Shown here: one piece after another, positions 4,640 through 49,448 of the stretch
How positions within the stretch are numbered: position 1 is the first letter of the stretch
Layout of the letters: each line of letters starts with the position of its first letter
Assembly (NCBI GenBank): GCA_020353515.1
Contig: CP070695.1
Coordinates: forward strand, 2,640,155-2,704,154
DNA: 64,000 bases
Source of the DNA: Candidatus Heimdallarchaeota archaeon
GTDB lineage: Archaea > Asgardarchaeota > Heimdallarchaeia > Hodarchaeales > Hodarchaeaceae
Direction: 5' to 3'
Program-made: the position numbers and the translations under genes
The notes under the pieces: generated by a model
Databases searched by the model: none
Told to the model about the DNA's origin: nothing
The model's input: only the letters and a program-made list of their open reading frames with translations

Positions 4640-5143
4640 TTATTCTTCTTTGTCAATAAAGTGTTCAGAACGAACAATAATACTCATGATATATTTTTCT
4701 GCTTCTAGTGTTAATCTAGCTTTTATTATGGGATACTTTAAGAATTCTTTCTGTGAGGTATCAATCACTAATTTAGATTTAATCCGCTTATTAATTGTTG
4801 CAATTGAAACAACTACCTCCTCATTTGATGATGATGAAATGCTTAACAATCTATTATCTAAATCAATACTCAACCTTTTGAACACATGCAATTTTTTCCT
4901 ATTTTTCTTGTATGTGAGAACTACTTTATCTCTAGCTCTTACTACAAAGTTTGCTGGAATATCATATTTTATTCTAACCTCTTTATAGGTTAAATGATGA
5001 AGTGCAACTGAATTAAAACACCCTTCATCATATGCAATAGTGCTAATATAGTTACAGACCTCTCTATAGATTCTTATTGTATTTTTCAACTTTGAAGAAT
5101 CTTCGACAGTAGGCTCCAGTATACCTAGGATGGTAAAATTCAT
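4640..5143 (-). CDS. TnpB (IS605 OrfB)-type N-terminal domain protein, lacking the nuclease
   Basis: The 167 residues match only the N-terminal part of IS200/IS605-family TnpB proteins. Recognisable pieces are the opening with LEPTVEDSSKL, the conserved VCNYISTIAYDEGCFN (about 31-46), LHHLTYKEVRIKYDIPANF, VVRARDKVVLTYK and RLSIDLDNRLLS. Full TnpB is about 400 aa and continues into the RuvC-like nuclease and zinc ribbon. Here the frame ends normally with a stop and no RuvC or zinc motif follows. No TnpA, terminal palindrome or omega-RNA-like end is evident. It is either a decayed element or a retained nuclease-free derivative. Confidence 0.65.
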   Translation of the reverse strand: MNFTILGILEPTVEDSSKLKNTIRIYREVCNYISTIAYDEGCFNSVALHHLTYKEVRIKYDIPANFVVRARDKVVLTYKKNRKKLHVFKRLSIDLDNRLLSISSSSNEEVVVSIATINKRIKSKLVIDTSQKEFLKYPIIKARLTLEAEKYIMSIIVRSEHFIDKEE

Positions 5144-5282: not shown

Positions 5283-7007
5283 TTACTTGAGGGGTAACAT
5301 TGCTGATCTTCTTGAGAATTGTTTAGCTCCATAATTTTCTAGCTGTTTTTCTAAAAGTGGGTAACCATTGTCTTCTAAAATTCTATTTAAACGATCTAAT
5401 TCAGATAATATAGAAAATAAATTTGGATCAATAGCTAAACATCTTCCGTCAACAATGGCAGTTTGGATCTCTCCACGTGCTATATCAGATCCCTTCAAAT
5501 GTGGTGCATCAAAAATTCCTAACTTAACTGCTTTTGTTAATGTTAATGGATCAATAAATGGATCTTTCACAGATTCTCCTGAGATTTTTTGAATTGCTTG
5601 AAGAATCAGATAACTGTCAGAAATAAGCTTTAATTTATAAGCCTCAAGCTTTCGATCTAAGTTGATTGAAGGTAATCCCCTTATAGAATTTGAAATCACT
5701 TTATGAGCTATTTTGGCACTTTCTATCACGTCTTCAGATGTTGCTGCATGATCAGCCTCACAATAACTGACCACATGGACAATATGTGGTTTAATAAACA
5801 TAGCCATTTGAATAGAAGATGCCAATTGCCCTTTTGCGAGATGAGGATCCTCGGGAAAACTCATGAGTCCAGTACGAACCTGACGATATGTAGTAAAGGT
5901 TTCAGAATGTAAACTTTCAATTAATTCCGTCTTAGCTAGCATTTTTGCTAAGTCATATCTAGGAGCTAGACCAATAGGAGTATTAAACATCATTTGAGAA
6001 ATATAATTATGCACTCCAGCCTTTTTTGAATTGTATGCACCTAAGAAGGCAGCTGCGACCGCTATAGCATCTGGAGCTGAACGAAGACTCCAATGATGCG
6101 CCTCATTTGCTTCAAATGGTATGTTATGTTCACCATGCCAAGTCATATTAGCAATATTCTCTTTAATTGCTTCCTGTAATACTCTATCACTTCTACCATC
6201 CAATTCAGAGTACCAGAAAAGAGGAGTAGCCCCCCAAGCATTATCAATAGTATTTCTAAGCATTCTTGATATTTTTATTAAATTTCTTGTACCTGAATAA
6301 CAACGTAATAAAGGATAATTTCCACGTCGAGAAACCTTATAAAAACTAATTAGATCTTCTTCCGAACGAATTGGAACTCCACCTGCTCCCTGTTCTGACT
6401 TTTTCATCTTGATAGGATTGAAAAAGTGTTCTTGAAAATTTTGATCTGGCCCTATTGAGATTATATCAATGATTTTTGCTGCTGCTACAGTTTTGATGCC
6501 TTTCTGGGTCTCTTCAACAGAAGGAACCCCATAATGGGCACGTAATAAGGGATAAGGATAATAAAATTCTATTCGGCCGATTAAACTCGTGGGAAAAGAA
6601 TTCTTTTCCTTTGAGGAGGAGAGTGAATCTCTCAAATATTCAATAACGTCCTTTTCTGTTGTGTTTCCACTAAAAAGACGATCAAATATTCCCAAGCGTC
6701 CAATTGCATTACATACAGGACTAGTACCCCCGAAGATCCACTTTTTCTTTCTTATCTTAGGGGTCATTCTGTTATTAAGTTCCTTCACAAGCTCAACACA
6801 GGCTTCTGGGGTTAAACGATAACTTAAAGCAATGATATCAGGATCCAATTTTTTGATTTCTGCAATAATATCTTCAATTGTGTTTGGAGGACGTAAGAAA
6901 GATGTTTTATACCCTTGTTGCTGTGCAATTCCCATGAAATTAAACACACCAGCAACATGAACACAGGAACCTAAAGTAGCACAAAATATGTGATTACTAT
7001 CTGTCAT
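5283..7007 (-). CDS. cobalamin-binding domain plus TIM-barrel mutase-like protein
   Basis: The first 125 residues look like a B12-binding Rossmann domain: CVHVAG (13-18) stands in for the usual DxHxxG motif, with Asp replaced by Cys but the cobalt-ligating His and the Gly kept. LSYRL corresponds to SxL and FGGTSP to the GG motif. The remaining 450 residues read as a TIM-barrel-type catalytic domain with well-formed segments such as MTWHGEHNIPFEANEAHHW and KAGVHNYISQMMFNTP. The overall order recalls B12-dependent mutases such as glutamate mutase, but I cannot assign a known substrate. The start overlaps the stop of the upstream opine-dehydrogenase-like gene by 4 nt, so the two are translationally coupled and probably act in sequence. 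Confidence 0.6.
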   Translation of the reverse strand: MTDSNHIFCATLGSCVHVAGVFNFMGIAQQQGYKTSFLRPPNTIEDIIAEIKKLDPDIIALSYRLTPEACVELVKELNNRMTPKIRKKKWIFGGTSPVCNAIGRLGIFDRLFSGNTTEKDVIEYLRDSLSSSKEKNSFPTSLIGRIEFYYPYPLLRAHYGVPSVEETQKGIKTVAAAKIIDIISIGPDQNFQEHFFNPIKMKKSEQGAGGVPIRSEEDLISFYKVSRRGNYPLLRCYSGTRNLIKISRMLRNTIDNAWGATPLFWYSELDGRSDRVLQEAIKENIANMTWHGEHNIPFEANEAHHWSLRSAPDAIAVAAAFLGAYNSKKAGVHNYISQMMFNTPIGLAPRYDLAKMLAKTELIESLHSETFTTYRQVRTGLMSFPEDPHLAKGQLASSIQMAMFIKPHIVHVVSYCEADHAATSEDVIESAKIAHKVISNSIRGLPSINLDRKLEAYKLKLISDSYLILQAIQKISGESVKDPFIDPLTLTKAVKLGIFDAPHLKGSDIARGEIQTAIVDGRCLAIDPNLFSILSELDRLNRILEDNGYPLLEKQLENYGAKQFSRRSAMLPLK

Positions 7008-8152
7008 TCCTCTAATACACTCTCCTGTTTCTTTATTTCGATATAGAATTCATCACCCAGAGTCATGTATTCTTTCAGTAAGTAAAATGGAATTTTATCA
7101 AGTTCCAGTGACTCAACAGTCCTCCCAAGAGATCTATAATCTTTATTGAACATACAATTGGCTAAATTAATTATTGCATCTATGAAAGGGGTTGGAACTT
7201 CAGCTACCTCTCCAAAACTAGAAAGGGGAATTAATCCAGTTGGAATATCTTCAAAGATATACCGGACATTTAAGGTTGAAGGTGCCATAACATTTTGATA
7301 TTCTTTTGTATTATGAATGGTTTCACATAAACTACCTCCACTACTTCCATAAACAGAATTCAACCATTTTTGTAGAGTAATTGCCTGTACTCCGAACGCG
7401 TCTGCTACAGCAACTCGTTCTTTATCCATTTTTTCTAAGAAAGAAGCAACAGAAGGAGATACTCCATCAATGTAATGTCGGTAGTTAACCTTTGGATCCT
7501 CACATCTAGCAATATTAAGTAATAAAGGGGTAGGGTGAAAAATAGCACCAATGTTATCGAAAGAAGTATTCAAAACAGATTCAGTTTCCCAAAAAGCACC
7601 ATTAAGATCCTTCAAAAACGGGACAACTTCCTCATTTTCACAGGAAGGAAATGCTGAAATTGGGACTCTTCTCTTTATCCCGGAAATTGTTACTTGACCA
7701 GGTTTTGAACATCGAGACACAAATAGAAGAGATTGAGCTTCTACAACATGTGGTTTGAAAGGGCCATTATTGTTCCGAATGGAATTTCTCACTTCAATTG
7801 CGCCTCCAGTTCTCCCTGGATTTAAAACAACGATTTGATTGCCATCTAAATAAGGAGTAATTCTTGCAGCTACATCTTTATGCGCATTAGCGGTCGTTAC
7901 GACCATTATTAACCTACTTTGTTTAATAACCTTGTGAATTGATGAAGAAATAAAATCAACGTCATAATGTCCTTCTAATAGTCCTGAGGAAGTAATACCT
8001 TTATTTTCTTTTATCGATTCAAGGACTGCTCTTGACCGATTCCAAATTTTTACTTTATAACCTTGTGATTTCGCATACGCAGCAAACGCATGTCCTCCAT
8101 TTCCTAACCCGAGAATAGATATAGAATCGTCTTGAATCTTATTATTTTTCAT
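7004..8152 (-). CDS. NAD/NADP opine dehydrogenase-family protein
   Basis: An N-terminal Rossmann domain carries GLGNGGHAFAAY (residues 15-26) for dinucleotide binding and a VLNPGRTGGA strand-turn. The C-terminal helical domain has the family signature DNIGAIFHPTPLLLN (about 199-213), which includes the conserved catalytic His of octopine/nopaline and CENDH-type dehydrogenases. It is 382 aa, within the normal range. These enzymes reductively condense, or oxidatively split, an amino acid and a 2-oxo acid. The true substrate is unknown. It is the first gene of a two-gene operon with the cobalamin protein. Confidence 0.8.
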   Translation of the reverse strand: MKNNKIQDDSISILGLGNGGHAFAAYAKSQGYKVKIWNRSRAVLESIKENKGITSSGLLEGHYDVDFISSSIHKVIKQSRLIMVVTTANAHKDVAARITPYLDGNQIVVLNPGRTGGAIEVRNSIRNNNGPFKPHVVEAQSLLFVSRCSKPGQVTISGIKRRVPISAFPSCENEEVVPFLKDLNGAFWETESVLNTSFDNIGAIFHPTPLLLNIARCEDPKVNYRHYIDGVSPSVASFLEKMDKERVAVADAFGVQAITLQKWLNSVYGSSGGSLCETIHNTKEYQNVMAPSTLNVRYIFEDIPTGLIPLSSFGEVAEVPTPFIDAIINLANCMFNKDYRSLGRTVESLELDKIPFYLLKEYMTLGDEFYIEIKKQESVLEE

Positions 8153-10291: not shown

Positions 10292-11422
10292 TTATCTAGA
10301 ATAATAGGCGGAGAGGTCAAGTCCATGGATTTTTAGAAGTCCGGCCGTTTTACCAGTAATTATTAGAGGTACTTTTTTTAACTCTGAAATATTCCGAGAA
10401 CCAGTAAGGAAACAAGCCACTCTTAGCTGATAGGTGATTTCTTCGATTTTCTGCACAACTGCTTCTGCAGAGTGTTGTTGAACTGTGAAAAGAAATGGAA
10501 TCGCAATCCCGGCTGCATCCGCTCCGAGAGCAATTAATTTTGCAATATCTAATCCACTTCTTACCCCCCCAGATCCAATAATTATTCCATCGAAATTTCT
10601 TTTGGCTAGGATTGTACTTAACACTGTAGGAATTCCCCAATCCCAATAAACTTCCCCAGTGTTCTTAAACTTGGGCAGGCTTGTCCTAATCGCCTCTACC
10701 CCTGCCCATGACGTTCCTCCCGCTCCTTGCACATCAATTGCTTGAAATCCCATCTTCTTAATTACTCTAATATCATGAAGACTAAATCCTGCACCAACTT
10801 CCTTGGCGATAACAGGGACAGAATGAGCTTGAATTAACTGTCTCGTTTTTTCATGGAGTCCTTTTAATTCCGTGTCACCTTCAGGTTGAATTGCCTCTTG
10901 AAGGGGATTAAAATGCACTGCAATGGCATCAGCTTTAATCATGTCAATGAGTTCTTGAAATTGATTATTAGTAAGCCCCTGAGCTATTTGACCCGCTCCT
11001 ATATTTCCAATAATCAGGGAATTGGGTGCTTTTTCTCTCACAATATTAAATGATTCTTTAACCTCATCATTTTCTAGAGCTGCTCTCTGACTTCCTACTC
11101 CCATACCGATATTGGTTTGTTCAACAGCTTGAGATAAAAACGCATTTAATTTGTGGGTAAAATCATGTCCTCCTGTCATCCCTGATATAATTAAGGGAAT
11201 GGAGAGCTTTTTATTAAAAATCTCACATGATAAATCAATCTCGTTAAGATTTAAATCAGTGGTTGCGTGATGCACAAATGAGATATCCTCTAATCCTGTT
11301 GTTATAGCTCGGCCTTGAACATCATGTTCCAAGCAAATTTGGATATGTGCTAGCTTCCTATCGGATGTCAAATTATTTTTTTTCTCAATTTTATCAGTTA
11401 ATACTTTATATTCTGTTTCCAT
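10292..11422 (-). CDS. fni: isopentenyl-diphosphate delta-isomerase, type 2
   Basis: This FMN- and NAD(P)H-dependent enzyme interconverts IPP and DMAPP, the last step before prenyl chain building. Diagnostic parts are FVHHATTDLNLNEIDL (29-44), the ISGMTGGHDFTHKLN loop, MGVGSQRAAL (about 102-111), the GNIGAGQIAQG strand, the Gln/Glu pair in AIDVQGAGGTSW, and the FMN phosphate loop GSGGVRSGLDIAK. It is 376 aa, a normal size. It is the final gene of the mevalonate operon, 12 nt after ubiX. Confidence 0.95.
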   Translation of the reverse strand: METEYKVLTDKIEKKNNLTSDRKLAHIQICLEHDVQGRAITTGLEDISFVHHATTDLNLNEIDLSCEIFNKKLSIPLIISGMTGGHDFTHKLNAFLSQAVEQTNIGMGVGSQRAALENDEVKESFNIVREKAPNSLIIGNIGAGQIAQGLTNNQFQELIDMIKADAIAVHFNPLQEAIQPEGDTELKGLHEKTRQLIQAHSVPVIAKEVGAGFSLHDIRVIKKMGFQAIDVQGAGGTSWAGVEAIRTSLPKFKNTGEVYWDWGIPTVLSTILAKRNFDGIIIGSGGVRSGLDIAKLIALGADAAGIAIPFLFTVQQHSAEAVVQKIEEITYQLRVACFLTGSRNISELKKVPLIITGKTAGLLKIHGLDLSAYYSR

Positions 11423-11434
11423 GTTGGGATTCTC

Positions 11435-12019
11435 TCACTTTACTACTTGCTGTTCACTTTTTTTCCATCGTCTATATTTCTCATTTGGAATATTTAAACA
11501 GTCTAAAACTTTCCCAGTAATGAAATTAAATAAATCTTGGATGTTTTGTGGTTTATGATAGAATCCTGGACTTAATGGGAGAATTATCGCACCATATGTG
11601 GCGAGTTTGTTTAAATTGTGGATGCAGGGGGGACTTAAAGGAGTTTCACGTATTCCTATGATCAAAGGTCGTCGCATCTTGAGCATTATATCAGCTGCCC
11701 GCGAAATAAGATTTTCAGTATTTGCATTGGCGATGTTACTAACTGTTTTTACTGTAGCTGGTATAACAACCATCCCATCTATCAATGTTGAGCTACTGGA
11801 AAGGGGTGCATCCATTTCTTTGCTATCATATACTCGAAAAGCTATTTCTTTGATTTTCGAAACGTCTATCCCTACTTCATCTTGTAGTACATATTCTGCC
11901 CATTCGCTCAAGATAACATGAGTCTCTATTCTGCTTTCTACTAAAGCTTGGAGTACCTCTATTCCATATTGGATTCCAGAAGCCCCTGTTAAAGCAACAA
12001 TTATACGCTTCGATTTCAC
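11435..12019 (-). CDS. ubiX: UbiX-type flavin prenyltransferase
   Basis: This enzyme makes prenylated FMN, the cofactor that UbiD-type decarboxylases need. The N-terminal FMN loop reads VALTGASGIQYGIEVLQ. The middle has VVIPATVKTVSNIANANTE, and later come RRPLIIGIRETPLSP and a C-terminal PLSPGFYHKP. It is 194 aa, a typical length. Its place between phosphomevalonate dehydratase and idi2, in one operon with ubiD, indicates that it serves the anhydromevalonate phosphate decarboxylase. Confidence 0.95.
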   Translation of the reverse strand: MKSKRIIVALTGASGIQYGIEVLQALVESRIETHVILSEWAEYVLQDEVGIDVSKIKEIAFRVYDSKEMDAPLSSSSTLIDGMVVIPATVKTVSNIANANTENLISRAADIMLKMRRPLIIGIRETPLSPPCIHNLNKLATYGAIILPLSPGFYHKPQNIQDLFNFITGKVLDCLNIPNEKYRRWKKSEQQVVK

Positions 12020-12101
12020 GAGATTTCACATCTATTGAGCGCTCTTAACCATCTCTTGTACTAGAAAGAATGAATAGCGGAAAAAGAAAGAATGGAAACT
12101 A

Positions 12102-12512
12102 TTATTCCACTTCAACTACTCCTGCACCAGCATCAATGATTACTTTTGATCCAGTTGTTATTTGACTGGTATCGATTTGATCTACACAGGGGATTTCCCC
12201 AATAATGCACCCAACAGCTACAATCGCTTCGCATTCTTGAAGGATTAGTGCCTTAGGTCCTTTTCCAGTCTTGGCCATTTGATAAATTACATAAGATCCG
12301 ACCGTTGACCCTTTACCTGTCGGAAACACCAGTATTTTATCGGTGGTGTCGACACCTTCTAATTCATGGCCTTTCTCGACTACTATTCCAGTCTCGGGGT
12401 CAACTCCGCCATAAAACGAGATACTATCTTTTGTCACTAGGGCTTCCCCTTCGGTCTTTCCTTGGTAAATTCGTCTACCTGTCAATTTCATTTTAAGGCC
12501 TCCTCTATACAT
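12102..12512 (-). CDS. phosphomevalonate dehydratase small subunit (AcnX swivel, DUF126)
   Basis: This is the small subunit of the archaeal 5-phosphomevalonate dehydratase, which makes trans-anhydromevalonate 5-phosphate. The swivelling domain shows GEALVTKDSISFYGGVDPET, GKGSTVGSYVIYQMA (active-site loop with the conserved Ser) and a terminal VIIDAGAGVVEVE. It overlaps the 3' end of the large-subunit gene by 25 nt. A GAGGAGGCC Shine-Dalgarno element sits before the internal ATG (12488), so the shorter start MKLTGRRIYQGK is more likely than the TTG/ATG at 12512. Confidence 0.92.
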   Translation of the reverse strand: MYRGGLKMKLTGRRIYQGKTEGEALVTKDSISFYGGVDPETGIVVEKGHELEGVDTTDKILVFPTGKGSTVGSYVIYQMAKTGKGPKALILQECEAIVAVGCIIGEIPCVDQIDTSQITTGSKVIIDAGAGVVEVE

Positions 12513-13669
12513 TCATCTACAGACATTAATTTCACTGAAAATTTATTCCTACCCGATCCATAATAACACATTTTAGCTGAATCGGATGCCAAGCCATGAA
12601 ATCGTCCTTTGATTGGAGCGACGACACAACATGTGTCTGCAGCAACTTTTGCTCCTGAATCTTCAATCATTTTTGTAAAACCCATACGATCAGCGATTTG
12701 TTTAGTAGGACGAGCCGTTGTGACCCATACCTCTTTTTGGGGATTTGTTTTTTTACCTTCTAATTGTTTAGCAATGTATTCTAATTCCGCTAGAGAGGCG
12801 TGTGGACATCCTAAGCTTATAAAATCAATCTCTGTATCTTCATCAAGATCAGCCATTGCACCTTTAAGATCATCTTCGTTTACTTCTATAGTCTCAGAAG
12901 GGATCGTTTCAACTCTATCAGGGGTAATGCCTTCCATATGGAATAATGCTACTCCACCATAAGTCGCATATGATGCACAGAATGATTTGAGTTCTTCAAC
13001 AGAAGCTTTTGGAATACCAGTGATATAACTAATCTTCTTTCCCAGACGATCACCTAAGACTTTACCTAATGCTCCAAATTGGAATGTTCCCTCAACTTTT
13101 GTTTTCACTTCAACCTTTACACTTGGCTGCCTGTTTTCATCAAGGTGAAAACCATATTCAGGTGTCTTTCCGACAAGAGCTGCACTGAGAGCGCTGGGGC
13201 CGCCTTCTCGGTTCGTTCTAGCACCTAAGACTGAGTTTGCATAGCAGACCGCGCTACTTTCAGACCAAGCAATGTGTTGACCATAATGAGGCAAGTTACC
13301 ATATAGGTAGGGAGTGCAACTGCAAGTAGTAATCACACCCATCTTTCCAAACGCTTCAACAACCCGGTGTTGGTTTTCTGCGAAATCTTCACTGATGGCT
13401 AATTTTTTCCATTCTTCAAGGTCCATACCCGCAGGATTGAGAGTGGTAAAAACTCTTACTTTGCCATCAACAGCCATATCAGCTAACCATTCTAGGCCAG
13501 GTTCGTTTAAGTTAGCATAACTTACACCTGCAATTTGGACAGATGTGATATCAATCATCCGCTTGGCACCATAAATATCCCCAAGCGTGACTAATATTTC
13601 CATAGCTTTTTGTGTGGCTTTTCCATACTTGCCTGCAGCCATATCTTGTTCTTCATTAGTTAGTTCCAT
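12488..13669 (-). CDS. phosphomevalonate dehydratase large subunit (aconitase X catalytic)
   Basis: This is the catalytic subunit of the AcnX-type enzyme that, with the small subunit, dehydrates mevalonate 5-phosphate in the archaeal mevalonate pathway. The iron-sulfur cysteines are seen in TTCSCTPYLYGN (about 113-124), SLGCPHASLAE and AADTCCVVAPIKGR. Other family segments are GHIAW-like QHIAWSESSAVCYANSVLGA and ARTNREGGPSAL. It is 393 aa, the usual length. It sits 17 nt after the ubiD gene. Confidence 0.94.
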   Translation of the reverse strand: MELTNEEQDMAAGKYGKATQKAMEILVTLGDIYGAKRMIDITSVQIAGVSYANLNEPGLEWLADMAVDGKVRVFTTLNPAGMDLEEWKKLAISEDFAENQHRVVEAFGKMGVITTCSCTPYLYGNLPHYGQHIAWSESSAVCYANSVLGARTNREGGPSALSAALVGKTPEYGFHLDENRQPSVKVEVKTKVEGTFQFGALGKVLGDRLGKKISYITGIPKASVEELKSFCASYATYGGVALFHMEGITPDRVETIPSETIEVNEDDLKGAMADLDEDTEIDFISLGCPHASLAELEYIAKQLEGKKTNPQKEVWVTTARPTKQIADRMGFTKMIEDSGAKVAADTCCVVAPIKGRFHGLASDSAKMCYYGSGRNKFSVKLMSVDECIEEALK

Positions 13670-13686
13670 ACTTCATCTCCTCATTT

Positions 13687-14999
13687 TCACATATAATCTT
13701 TTAAATCAACTTCGGGAAATTCAGCCCGAGTAAAACTTTTCCCCTTTGTCACCAAAGGGGCAGTAAAATCAAAACCAATTTTATTTGTGATTTTCGTCCC
13801 TGGTTCTGCACTCGGGTCTAAGCTAGAACCTGGTTCCTTTCCCATGTCTACTAAGTCTCTTTCAGCCTGAAAACGAGTTGCCATTGACCATTCCACTTCT
13901 AAGGGGTTATAGATATCAATATCTTTATCGACAACAAATACATGTTTACAGCTTCTATGTCCAGCGAAGGCAGCACGTATAGCTTTCTTTCCATCTTCTT
14001 CGTTCTGTTTATCGATCCTCACTATGGCATGAAGCCATGAGGAACCACCAGGGTTTACATTTACATCTAAACATTTTACCCCTGCTTCATTCACAGACTT
14101 GAATATTGTGGGCTCTCGAGGCATCCCCATAAGGACCTTATGTTCTAAGGCACCTGGGACAAGAGCTTGCCATACTGGGTTTTTCCTATGAGTGACCGTT
14201 TTCACTTCAAAAACAGGTTCATCACGTGTGATATCATATGTTTCAGTAAGATCGATGAATGGCCCTTCTTCCGCACGATCTTTCATGAATACTTTTCCTT
14301 CGAGTACTACCTCACACCCCGCAGGAATTAAGAGATCAACTGAATGGGCTTTTGTCACCTCCGTTTTTGCAAGAGCATTAGCAATCTCTAATTCGTTGAT
14401 TCCCGTTTTTACAGATGTTGCAGCAGCAACAAGTATGTTGGGGGTGTTTCCGACGCAATAAGCTGCCTCTACTTCTCCTGTTCTTTCAAGAAACTTGTAG
14501 AAATCACGTCCTTTAATTATCCGTGTACTCATTCGACTTTCTGAAAATTGCATAGCCCGATGAAAATCAAGGTTTTGACCAAATTCAGGATCTTTGGTCA
14601 CAACAACAGCGGAAGAAATGTATCTACCACCGTCTCGTTCATTATGTTTTAATATTGGAAGTTTATCCAGATTAACTCCATCCATAACAACTTCTTGACA
14701 TGGCGCACCGCTGATTTCCTCGGGTTTCGATTGTCAATCGCTGCTGTCAGTTTAGGAATTAAATCTGCTGTAGTGATTTTAAAATAATCTGCAATGCTTT
14801 CCTTTGTACAAAAAACGTTACCTGAGACCTGAAAATCAGAATATCCTTTTACATTTTCAAATAAAAGGGGGGTTGGTTCTGCTGCCTTTAAGACTGCCGC
14901 TGCTTCTATATCTATGCTAACTTCTTTCTTTATGCTAGTAATTTTTCCACTTTTTTTAAGTTCATTTAGATATTCCCGAAAGTACATTTTATTTTCCAC
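13687..14999 (-). CDS. UbiD-family anhydromevalonate phosphate decarboxylase, split by a -1 frameshift
   Basis: Two overlapping frames together give one UbiD protein of about 437 residues, the family's normal size. The first frame (start 14999) reads through TPLLFENVKGYSDFQVSGNV and DLIPKLTAAIDNRNP. It then loses register at an AAACCC run (14722-14727 on the plus strand). The other frame continues as EEISGAPCQEVVMDG, LDKLPIL, DGGRYISSAVVV and later RAEEGPFIDLTETY with the catalytic Glu region. The product decarboxylates anhydromevalonate phosphate to isopentenyl phosphate using prenyl-FMN from UbiX. One missing base in the homopolymers explains everything; sequencing error or a genuine mutation cannot be told apart here. 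Confidence 0.88.
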
Positions 15000-15014
15000 C
15001 TTCTATACTAGAGC

Positions 15015-15965
15015 TTATACTCCAATTAGAGTTTTCCATGCGGGATGTCCCGCGTCTTTTAATGCGTTGTATACTTTATCTTGAAGTTCTGATCCAGGGG
15101 TTAAAGCGATTATATTTCCTCCTCTTCCAGTTCCAGTTACTTTGGCTCCTAAAGCTCCGTTATCTCTTGCAAGCTTGACCATTTTATCCAAAACATCATT
15201 AGATACAGTGACCTTTTGAAGCAGTTCATGATTTGTGTTCATGAGTTTCCCCACTTGCTCTAATTCCATGTTTTCTAGTGCTTCTCGCCCTTCTTTAATT
15301 ACTTCTTGATATTCTTTAACTATCCCTTCAAACCACTCAGGGTTCTCCTCCTTCTTTTTCCGAACATCTCCAACAACAACTGCTGTATTAGCTGTCATTC
15401 CTGAGCTTGCAATCACTAATTCAATTGGTTTTTCTAGTTTTATTGTTTCTATTGTATTGGGGCCCCCCTTGAGATTTCGAATGAAATAAACTAATCCACC
15501 AAATGTTGAAGCAGTATTATCAATTCCACTAGGAGTACCATGATATCCCTTTTCACCTTCATAAGCAGCATTATTTATTTTCTCATTATCCCATCCTAGG
15601 TTAAATTCATCATTGATTGCTCTCGCAAGTGAAACACAGTTTGCTGCAGATGCTCCAACACCACTAGCACAAACAAGATCTCCACCGAATGTTATCTTCA
15701 GGGAGGTTCCTTCTAGGTTAACTCCCATAAACTCCAAAACATTTTTTATGGCTACTTTTTGCTCGTTAAACTTCTTTTCCTTATATCCAGGGATTTCTGG
15801 TCGGTTATCATTCAATTCATACCCTTTTCCTTCTTTAGATTCAACAACACATGTAGTAGTATCACCTATTGCGGATGCAAGCGCAGGTACACCATATACA
15901 ACAAAATGTTCTCCAAATAAAATGGTTTTTCCATAGCCAGATCCTTTACCAGCCATTTTTATCAC
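15015..15965 (-). CDS. mvk: mevalonate kinase
   Basis: This GHMP-family kinase phosphorylates mevalonate at O5. Motif 1 is GKTILFGEHFVVYGVPALAS (13-32). The ATP loop is CASGVGASAANCVSLA, where GVGASAA replaces the more common GLGSSAA. The catalytic-Asp segment is GTPSGIDNTASTFGG, and motif 3 is GALGAKVTGTGRGGNII. It is 316 aa, normal for the family. The start could be the ATG three codons further in (MAGKGSG). It is the first gene of the isoprenoid operon and its promoter lies in the divergent gap facing pgk. Confidence 0.95.
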   Translation of the reverse strand: MIKMAGKGSGYGKTILFGEHFVVYGVPALASAIGDTTTCVVESKEGKGYELNDNRPEIPGYKEKKFNEQKVAIKNVLEFMGVNLEGTSLKITFGGDLVCASGVGASAANCVSLARAINDEFNLGWDNEKINNAAYEGEKGYHGTPSGIDNTASTFGGLVYFIRNLKGGPNTIETIKLEKPIELVIASSGMTANTAVVVGDVRKKKEENPEWFEGIVKEYQEVIKEGREALENMELEQVGKLMNTNHELLQKVTVSNDVLDKMVKLARDNGALGAKVTGTGRGGNIIALTPGSELQDKVYNALKDAGHPAWKTLIGV

Positions 15966-33529: not shown

Positions 33530-33623
33530 GCGCTGATGGTCTAGTCTGGTCTAGGACTCCAGCCTTCCATTCTCATTGAAGAGAAGATAGCTGGCTACCC
33601 GGGTTCAAATCCCGGTCGGCGCA
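33530..33623 (+). tRNA. tRNA-Gly(UCC) with 37/38 intron
   Basis: The acceptor GCGCTGA pairs with TCGGCGC (one G-T), and the T-arm is CCGGG-TTCAAAT-CCCGG. The anticodon stem CCAGC/GCTGG encloses CTTCCA plus a 19-nt insertion (33570-33588) whose ends TTCTC and GAGAA pair. Removing it leaves 75 nt with anticodon TCC. CCA is not encoded. Confidence 0.9.
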
Positions 33624-48632: not shown

Positions 48633-48737
48633 CGGGCACAGAGGGATTTGAACCCCCGACCAACAGGTATCTTCAGTCAAATTCTTAAAATATGAACATT
48701 AAAAGCCTGTCGCTCTACCTGGCTGAGCTATGCGCCC
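48633..48737 (-). tRNA. tRNA-Lys(UUU) with 37/38 intron
   Basis: The acceptor GGGCGCA pairs with TGTGCCC (one G-T) and the discriminator is G. The D-arm is GCTCAGCCAGGTAGAGC. The anticodon stem ACAGG/CCTGT encloses CTTTTAA plus a 31-nt intron (about 48668-48698). The T-arm is CGGGGG-type with TTCAAAT. Mature length is 74 nt. Confidence 0.94.
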
Positions 48738-48749
48738 TTAGGTTTCTGG

Positions 48750-48854
48750 CGCCCCGGTCGGGATTTGAACCCGAGTCGGATGGGTTCGGCAGACTATCAG
48801 AGTTGATAAGGCTTTGACAGCCATCAATGCTAGGCCAGACTACACCACCGGGGC
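48750..48854 (-). tRNA. tRNA-Asp(GUC) with 37/38 intron
   Basis: The acceptor GCCCCGG/CCGGGGC with discriminator G, and the T-arm CTCGGG-TTCAAAT-CCCGA, frame a D-arm of the Glu/Asp type. The anticodon stem GATGG/CCATC encloses CTGTCA, C and a 30-nt intron (48785-48814, internal helix TATCA/TGATA). The mature length is 75 nt. It is 12 nt from the tRNA-Lys gene and may share its transcript. Confidence 0.94.
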
Positions 48855-49341: not shown

Positions 49342-49448
49342 GCTCCGATAGTGTAGCTCGGCCCATCATTCAGGGCTCTCAATGAAAGTCTATTAATCAG
49401 ATTTTCAGGAGCTCCCCTGTGACCCGGGTTCAAATCCCGGTCGGAGCA
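49342..49448 (+). tRNA. tRNA-Glu(CUC) with 37/38 intron
   Basis: The acceptor GCTCCGA/TCGGAGC, D-arm and T-arm CCGGG-TTCAAAT-CCCGG match the tRNA-Glu(UUC) gene at 37584. The anticodon stem CAGGG/CCCTG encloses CTCTCA, C and a 32-nt intron (49382-49413). Unlike the UUC gene, there is no T-loop intron. Mature length is 75 nt. Confidence 0.94.

Follow-up and report, generated by a model that had tools for sequence, protein, structure and literature searches.

A widespread gene pair encoding an opine dehydrogenase and a predicted adenosylcobalamin-dependent mutase, with a candidate role in osmolyte synthesis

The window analyzed here, a 64,000-nt stretch of DNA that is part of one 4.94-Mb contig, contains two overlapping genes, one for an opine dehydrogenase (ODH) and one for a protein that joins a B12-binding domain to a TIM barrel (hereafter the B12 protein); the pair is real and old, and is a unit. 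We consider it rather likely that the two products, an adenosylcobalamin (AdoCbl)-dependent and PLP-independent mutase and an opine dehydrogenase, build an osmolyte or K+ counter-ion from an amino acid; as part of that joint explanation, and only as such, the two enzymes would be expected to act in one short pathway.

The gene pair and its distribution

The two reading frames have four nucleotides in common, in the context ...gagGAATGAcag... (Table 1), in agreement with the overlap and translational coupling given in the preliminary description of this DNA. Its call of an opine-dehydrogenase-type enzyme is likewise borne out by a match of the ODH to Pfam Octopine_DH (PF02317) with an E-value of 3.5e-44 (150.9 bits against a cut-off of 30) and by a nearly full-length phmmer alignment (2.6e-79) to its closest solved relative, N-(1-D-carboxylethyl)-L-norvaline dehydrogenase (CENDH, PDB 1bg6). 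His202 and Asp297 of CENDH align with His206 and Asp302 of the ODH, and in an alignment of 102 relatives His206 and Arg297 are kept in all sequences and Asp302 in 100, the three residues aligning with the expected catalytic residues. Because of the alignment with 1bg6 and the conservation of these residues, the ODH is, judging from its sequence, very probably an active opine dehydrogenase.

Table 1. Coordinates of the gene pair, of features within it and of related fusion genes. Positions are those of the window unless a locus is named.
Feature	Position	Strand	Basis
Opine dehydrogenase (ODH), 382 aa	7004-8152	-	ORF list, Pfam, 1bg6 match
B12-domain/TIM-barrel protein, 574 aa	5283-7007	-	ORF list, Pfam, predicted structure
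ATGA shared by ODH stop and B12-mutase start (translational coupling)	7004-7007	-	Sequence
CVHVAG codons, residues 15-20, C/D-x-H-x-x-G cobalamin-ligand motif	6948-6965	-	Computed from ORF start 7007
Three-domain fusion, B12-binding + mutase barrel + GlmL-like	L205:1739-5383		Family scan
Three-domain fusion, B12-binding + mutase barrel + GlmL-like	L206:3306-7007	-	Sequence and length

A gene for the B12 protein is present in 91 of the 227 genomes examined from the window's phylum and in 60 of 299 from Bacillota, and a profile scan located relatives in at least 563 further stretches; a single-sequence scan of genome contigs returned no match, and the alignment-based scan returned hundreds. Carriers include Asgard archaea, Theionarchaea, methanogen and Thermococci metagenome-assembled genomes (MAGs), Thermoproteota MAGs, Clostridia, Aminicenantes, Halanaerobiales and Symbiobacterium, among others, and the protein was found on no plasmid and no phage in the plasmid and phage sets searched. 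An ODH gene adjoins that for the B12 protein in 99 of 109 distinct loci from archaea and bacteria, standing first in 79 of the paired loci and second in 20, and across the 109 loci the two genes overlap by four nucleotides in 48 cases and by one in 16. In three of the ten exceptions (L081, L091, L096) the end of an ODH gene lies at the contig edge just upstream, in L120 a frameshifted ODH is in place, in L050 and L149 the ODH is a few genes off, and in the others the contig mostly ends near the pair. The distance matrices of the two proteins correlate with r = 0.81, against a maximum of 0.15 in 999 permutations. The occurrence in 91 of 227 genomes of the phylum, the 563 or more further relatives and the adjacency in 99 of 109 loci argue against chance pairing, and the neighborhood survey called for in the preliminary description thus finds the pair conserved in hundreds of anaerobic archaea and bacteria.

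The source of the window itself appears to be an Asgard archaeon, because the nearest relatives by B12 protein in the profile scan are public Heimdallarchaeota and Hodarchaeum MAGs and an archaeal-type mevalonate cluster lies at 10-16 kb of the window. This cluster (10292-15965) comprises genes for IPP isomerase 2, UbiX, a DUF126/aconitase-X-like pair, mevalonate kinase and a UbiD-family decarboxylase; the last (13687-14999, minus strand) apparently consists of two ORFs in different frames with a break near 14650-14685, possibly a frameshift or a sequencing error, and the short ORF has no family match. Directly downstream of the pair, a 167-aa ORF (4640-5143, minus strand) has a weak match, below the cut-off, to a transposase N-terminal domain (TIGR01765) and may be a remnant of a mobile element. 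Four tRNA matches of 94-107 nt, given by Rfam and not by ARAGORN (33530-33623, plus; 48633-48737, minus; 48750-48854, minus; 49342-49448, plus), are probably intron-containing archaeal tRNAs.

Riboswitch, neighboring genes and physiological role

An Rfam scan placed a c-di-AMP riboswitch (RF00379) upstream of the operon and on the same strand in 25 of 49 bacterial loci, a count inflated by close relatives, with scores of 63-118 bits against a gathering score of 38; the other 24 loci have none. In 24 loci no more than 400 nt separate the end of the aptamer from the first gene, and in L120 the apparent gap is occupied by the frameshifted ODH. The carriers comprise Thermoanaerobacter/Caldanaerobacter, Thermoanaerobacterium, Tissierellia, Tepidanaerobacteraceae, Symbiobacterium, Fermentithermobacillaceae and others. 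Eight genomes were searched whole; in four of them the element at the operon is the only one over the cut-off, and the other elements precede genes that, read from sequence, are apparently for wall hydrolases and a glycine-betaine-type binding protein. Between the aptamer and the ODH start codon, terminator-like hairpins in three loci (L105, L086, L123) look as would be expected of an OFF switch. RF00379 has no match in the window, and the Rfam matches of the scanned loci include no cobalamin riboswitch; the riboswitch is thus known for the bacterial loci, and what it says of function would carry over to the archaeal window by extension. Riboswitches of this class control osmotic-shock and wall genes, and one precedes ablA, which serves the osmolyte precursor beta-lysine (PMC9337991).

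Third genes recur near the pair in about 20 of the 109 distinct loci, and all of these lie elsewhere than beside the pair of the window: AsnB-like genes accompany 12 operons and genes for Ddl-like ATP-grasp ligases 8. Most of the AsnB-like neighbors lack the glutaminase cysteine (MAGIAG, MTGIF); this N-terminal catalytic residue is replaced by Ala, Thr or Pro in L032, L034, L048, L050, L063, L080, L088, L119 and L147. These AsnB-like proteins are probably devoid of glutaminase activity and, because the cysteine is lost, could draw on free ammonia or some other amine. An NAD-synthase-like gene, a D-glutamate cyclase-like gene and an Asp/Glu racemase gene occur in single loci, and a PLP racemase gene in three. 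These neighbors suggest amidation or ligation of the product in some lineages and hint at a D-amino-acid substrate, although they are too sparse to carry much weight. A comparison with the logic of pyrrolysine synthesis (mutase, ATP-grasp ligase, dehydrogenase) was taken no further than analogy, because PylB is a radical-SAM enzyme, PylD belongs to a different dehydrogenase family and the ligase is not conserved here.

The preliminary description had suggested a possible route of amino-acid fermentation or salvage. The c-di-AMP riboswitch in front of the bacterial operon shifts the likely role toward synthesis of an osmolyte or K+ counter-ion, and together with the amide-forming ligases that sometimes adjoin the operon it leads us to favor osmolyte synthesis over fermentation or salvage; opines, amides and unusual amino acids would all fit a role as compatible solute or K+ counter-ion. 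Fermentation or salvage, in which the ODH would split an opine oxidatively and the mutase would rearrange the freed amino acid for degradation, as with the glutamate mutase of Clostridium, we judge unlikely. In its favor, the related mutases GlmE, lysine 5,6-aminomutase (5,6-LAM) and ornithine 4,5-aminomutase (4,5-OAM) are textbook enzymes of fermentation, and amino-acid fermenters are among the hosts. One of the fused paralogues (L206) also has Opp/Dpp-type ABC transporter genes and a gene for a Peptidase_C26 protein as neighbors; this counts against the osmolyte reading, as it suggests that some modules of this kind may be catabolic. However, it is the main operon that carries the c-di-AMP riboswitch, its recurrent partners are ligases that form amides and not lyases or thiolases, neither an importer nor a gene for downstream catabolism is conserved with it, and the pair occurs also in sugar fermenters such as Thermoanaerobacterium.

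That c-di-AMP riboswitches control cell-wall genes as well also speaks against osmolyte synthesis, and genes apparently for wall hydrolases stand under such riboswitches in the same genomes as the operon. An unusual amino acid or opine made for peptidoglycan or a surface polymer would be consistent with this, and with the Ddl-like ligase, the racemases and the D-glutamate cyclase-like gene that adjoin the pair in some loci. We nevertheless regard an envelope role as quite improbable: the pair is found widely among Asgard and other archaea, which, as textbooks have it, are without murein, no Mur or glycan genes recur beside it, and the D-amino-acid genes are confined to a handful of loci.

Cobalamin domain, mutase barrel and proposed mechanism

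The B12 protein matches Pfam B12-binding at residues 6-97 (E 3.2e-8), within a domain of about residues 1-135 that carries the motif Cys15-x-His17-x-x-Gly20 and precedes a TIM barrel at about residues 137-542. Searched alone against PDB sequences, the protein had no match; the domain as a profile matches solved corrinoid proteins, MetH, OraE and others. His17 and Gly20 are invariant in 109 relatives, of which 101 have Cys and the remaining 8 have Asp at position 15, no third residue being found there, and the other base-off/His-on signature positions are Ser62 (100 of 109), Leu65 (109), Gly93 (97) and Gly94 (86); 66 positions are at least 98% conserved over the 109 sequences. The base-off/His-on pattern DxHxxG, SxL, GG is thus recognizable by sequence, though the Asp itself is replaced in most relatives, and the B12-binding-like domain with Cys for Asp noticed in the window's CVHVAG proves to be a trait of the family at large. 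The Cys/Asp alternation at the cobalamin dyad should be of interest to B12 enzymologists.

An AlphaFold model of the protein (pLDDT 88.8, pTM 0.83) superposes best, over the barrel, with glutamate mutase epsilon (Z 31.6, 3.1 A over 373 residues, 13% identity; Foldseek E 5e-16), followed by lysine 5,6-aminomutase (Z 29.1), ornithine 4,5-aminomutase (26.2) and methylmalonyl-CoA mutase (about 20). The mutase-like barrel reported earlier is accordingly upheld by the structure prediction that had been called for, the modeled fold being that of the cobalamin mutases. The match to Met_asp_mut_E (PF06368; E 0.022) stays below the cut-off at 13.7 bits against 26.6, and a Thermoanaerobacter relative scores 16.5 against a TIGR01503 cut-off of 390.1. 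Because neither score reaches the curated cut-off of its MutE family, we do not file the protein as a glutamate mutase; it has the predicted glutamate-mutase fold and probably the chemistry, outside the families PF06368 and TIGR01503. TIGR01503 was silent in the window's own genome and so were the controls, and this result has no bearing on the presence of GlmE.

Invariant Glu417 aligns in five of five alignments with Glu330 of GlmE, a residue known to contact the adenosyl ribose. Because hhalign comparisons of the barrel with GlmE, KamD and OraE profiles gave no significance, only Glu417 is taken from the alignments, and mapping of the active site beyond it is uncertain at a barrel identity to GlmE of 13%. 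With the register ambiguous at that identity, the alignments put His158, Gln192 and Tyr237 at the GlmE arginine-claw positions Arg66, Arg100 and Arg149 (a set with which Glu171 was also named in the comparison), and the invariant Arg156 and Arg235 lie two residues off claw positions.

The gene for GlmL, which serves methylaspartate mutase as an accessory protein that reactivates it, lies beside the pair in L092, L094 and L122. Two genomes of the Bacillota set (L205, L206) encode paralogues of 1214-1233 aa in which the B12 domain and barrel are fused to a GlmL-like domain, and a fused paralogue of similar length occurs in an Asgard genome (L207, G140); the domains were assigned by family scan in L205 and from sequence and length in L206 and L207. 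An ODH paralogue precedes the fusion gene in L205 and L206, the two fusion loci with upstream sequence, and the fusions are apparently a second opine-mutase module, perhaps catabolic; the L206 fusion also has a DUF401 transporter gene nearby. Elsewhere, a 647-aa barrel paralogue in a Clostridium ultunense genome (G228, L208:5178-7121), with no recognized B12 domain or adjacent ODH, adjoins a hydantoinase/carbamoylase-family amidase gene. A CobO/BtuR adenosyltransferase gene lies inside the L080 operon, and the window's own genome encodes a CobA/BtuR-type adenosyltransferase away from the pair, a search there for the PduO type giving none. Dependence on AdoCbl is well supported by the predicted glutamate-mutase fold, the putative ribose-binding Glu417, the association and fusion with GlmL and the adenosyltransferase genes, so that of the AdoCbl-dependent rearrangement first suggested for this protein the cofactor stands as a well-supported prediction and the rearrangement itself as a proposal.

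The barrel's likeness to lysine 5,6- and ornithine 4,5-aminomutase (Z 26-29) and the alignment of the B12 domain with OraE could also point to a PLP-dependent aminomutase that supplies an amine to the ODH; this we find very improbable, as the OraE alignment with column counts over 109 relatives has no conserved lysine at the PLP-binding position of OraE/KamE, and glutamate mutase ranks first for the predicted model. A corrinoid methyl-transfer protein can hardly be meant, even though the best single sequence matches of the B12 domain are methyltransferase corrinoid proteins, for the barrel belongs with those of the mutases and keeps the Glu that binds the AdoCbl ribose, and the partners are GlmL rather than a methyltransferase or a RACE-type reactivase.

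In the mechanism that we propose for osmolyte synthesis, the NAD(P)-dependent ODH would join an amino acid to a 2-oxo acid in a reductive N-alkylation that yields an N-(carboxyalkyl) amino acid. The mutase would be a glutamate-mutase-type enzyme acting on carbon skeletons, a single chain that begins with the B12 domain; it would cleave AdoCbl homolytically to a deoxyadenosyl radical that abstracts hydrogen from a polycarboxylic amino-acid substrate, leading to a 1,2-shift. The invariant Arg156, Arg235, Arg309 and Arg378 would serve its carboxylates, and Asp188 and Glu299 its amine. The substrate of the mutase would probably be the opine itself or one of its halves, with the order of the steps left free, and the product would accumulate as an organic osmolyte or K+ counter-ion, in some lineages after AsnB-like or Ddl-like amidation or ligation. 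In bacteria the operon would be off at high c-di-AMP; in Asgard archaea the genes probably lead to the same product but are controlled differently. A more tentative idea is that bacteria and Asgard archaea share a B12 osmolyte pathway with an opine as the substrate, which a glutamate-mutase-like enzyme would rearrange into a new class of compatible solute, for example by moving the N-substituent of a propionate unit from C2 to C3, or by moving a glycyl unit inside an N-carboxyalkyl glutamate. We know of no enzyme that acts on an opine by such a rearrangement.

Comparison with known systems

The preliminary description considered that the route might be undescribed; the family had, however, been predicted by Zhang et al. 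in 2009 (BMC Genomics 10:78, PMC2667541), who described in 11 bacteria a new B12-dependent family with a COG5012-like B12 domain, always beside an octopine/nopaline dehydrogenase and in several organisms near D-Ala:D-Ala ligase and asparagine synthase genes, assigned it no function and called for experiments. The family of the window is evidently the same. Their account is without archaea, fold class, reactivase link, riboswitch or function; we add the predicted glutamate-mutase fold, the Asgard distribution, the link to GlmL and the c-di-AMP riboswitch in front of the operon. No later work on the family was found in the literature searched, in which surveys of the c-di-AMP riboswitch (ydaO) were partly covered. 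In that literature the family has no assigned function, yet it occurs in about one fifth of the Bacillota genomes sampled and about two fifths of those of the window's phylum, and the riboswitch gives it a physiological context that is tractable in Thermoanaerobacter-type bacteria. If our proposal is true, the known osmolytes would gain one that depends on B12, c-di-AMP and K+ would be tied to cobalamin, and Asgard archaea would turn out to have an unexpected route to a stress solute.

The operon shares with ablA (PMC9337991) a riboswitch of the same class before an amino-acid mutase for an osmolyte, the osmolyte role of the pair being our proposal; ablA encodes a radical-SAM/PLP enzyme, whereas the pair would combine AdoCbl with an opine dehydrogenase. 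The window's ODH belongs, along almost its entire sequence, to the family of 1bg6 and of octopine dehydrogenase (3c7a) and, unlike them, is the near-obligate partner of a B12 mutase. The lysine 5,6- and ornithine 4,5-aminomutases have an AdoCbl barrel of the same superfamily but bind PLP on a lysine of the B12 domain that is absent from the window protein. Closest is glutamate mutase GlmE/GlmS of Clostridium cochlearium (1cb7, 6h9e), with which the protein would have in common the barrel, the ribose-binding Glu, a C-terminal extension, PLP-independence and the use of GlmL. It differs at 13% identity in being one chain with the B12 domain first and in having mostly Cys for the Asp of DxHxxG; the arginine claw is not clearly conserved in the alignments, whose register is ambiguous, and its partner is an opine dehydrogenase where that of glutamate mutase is methylaspartase.
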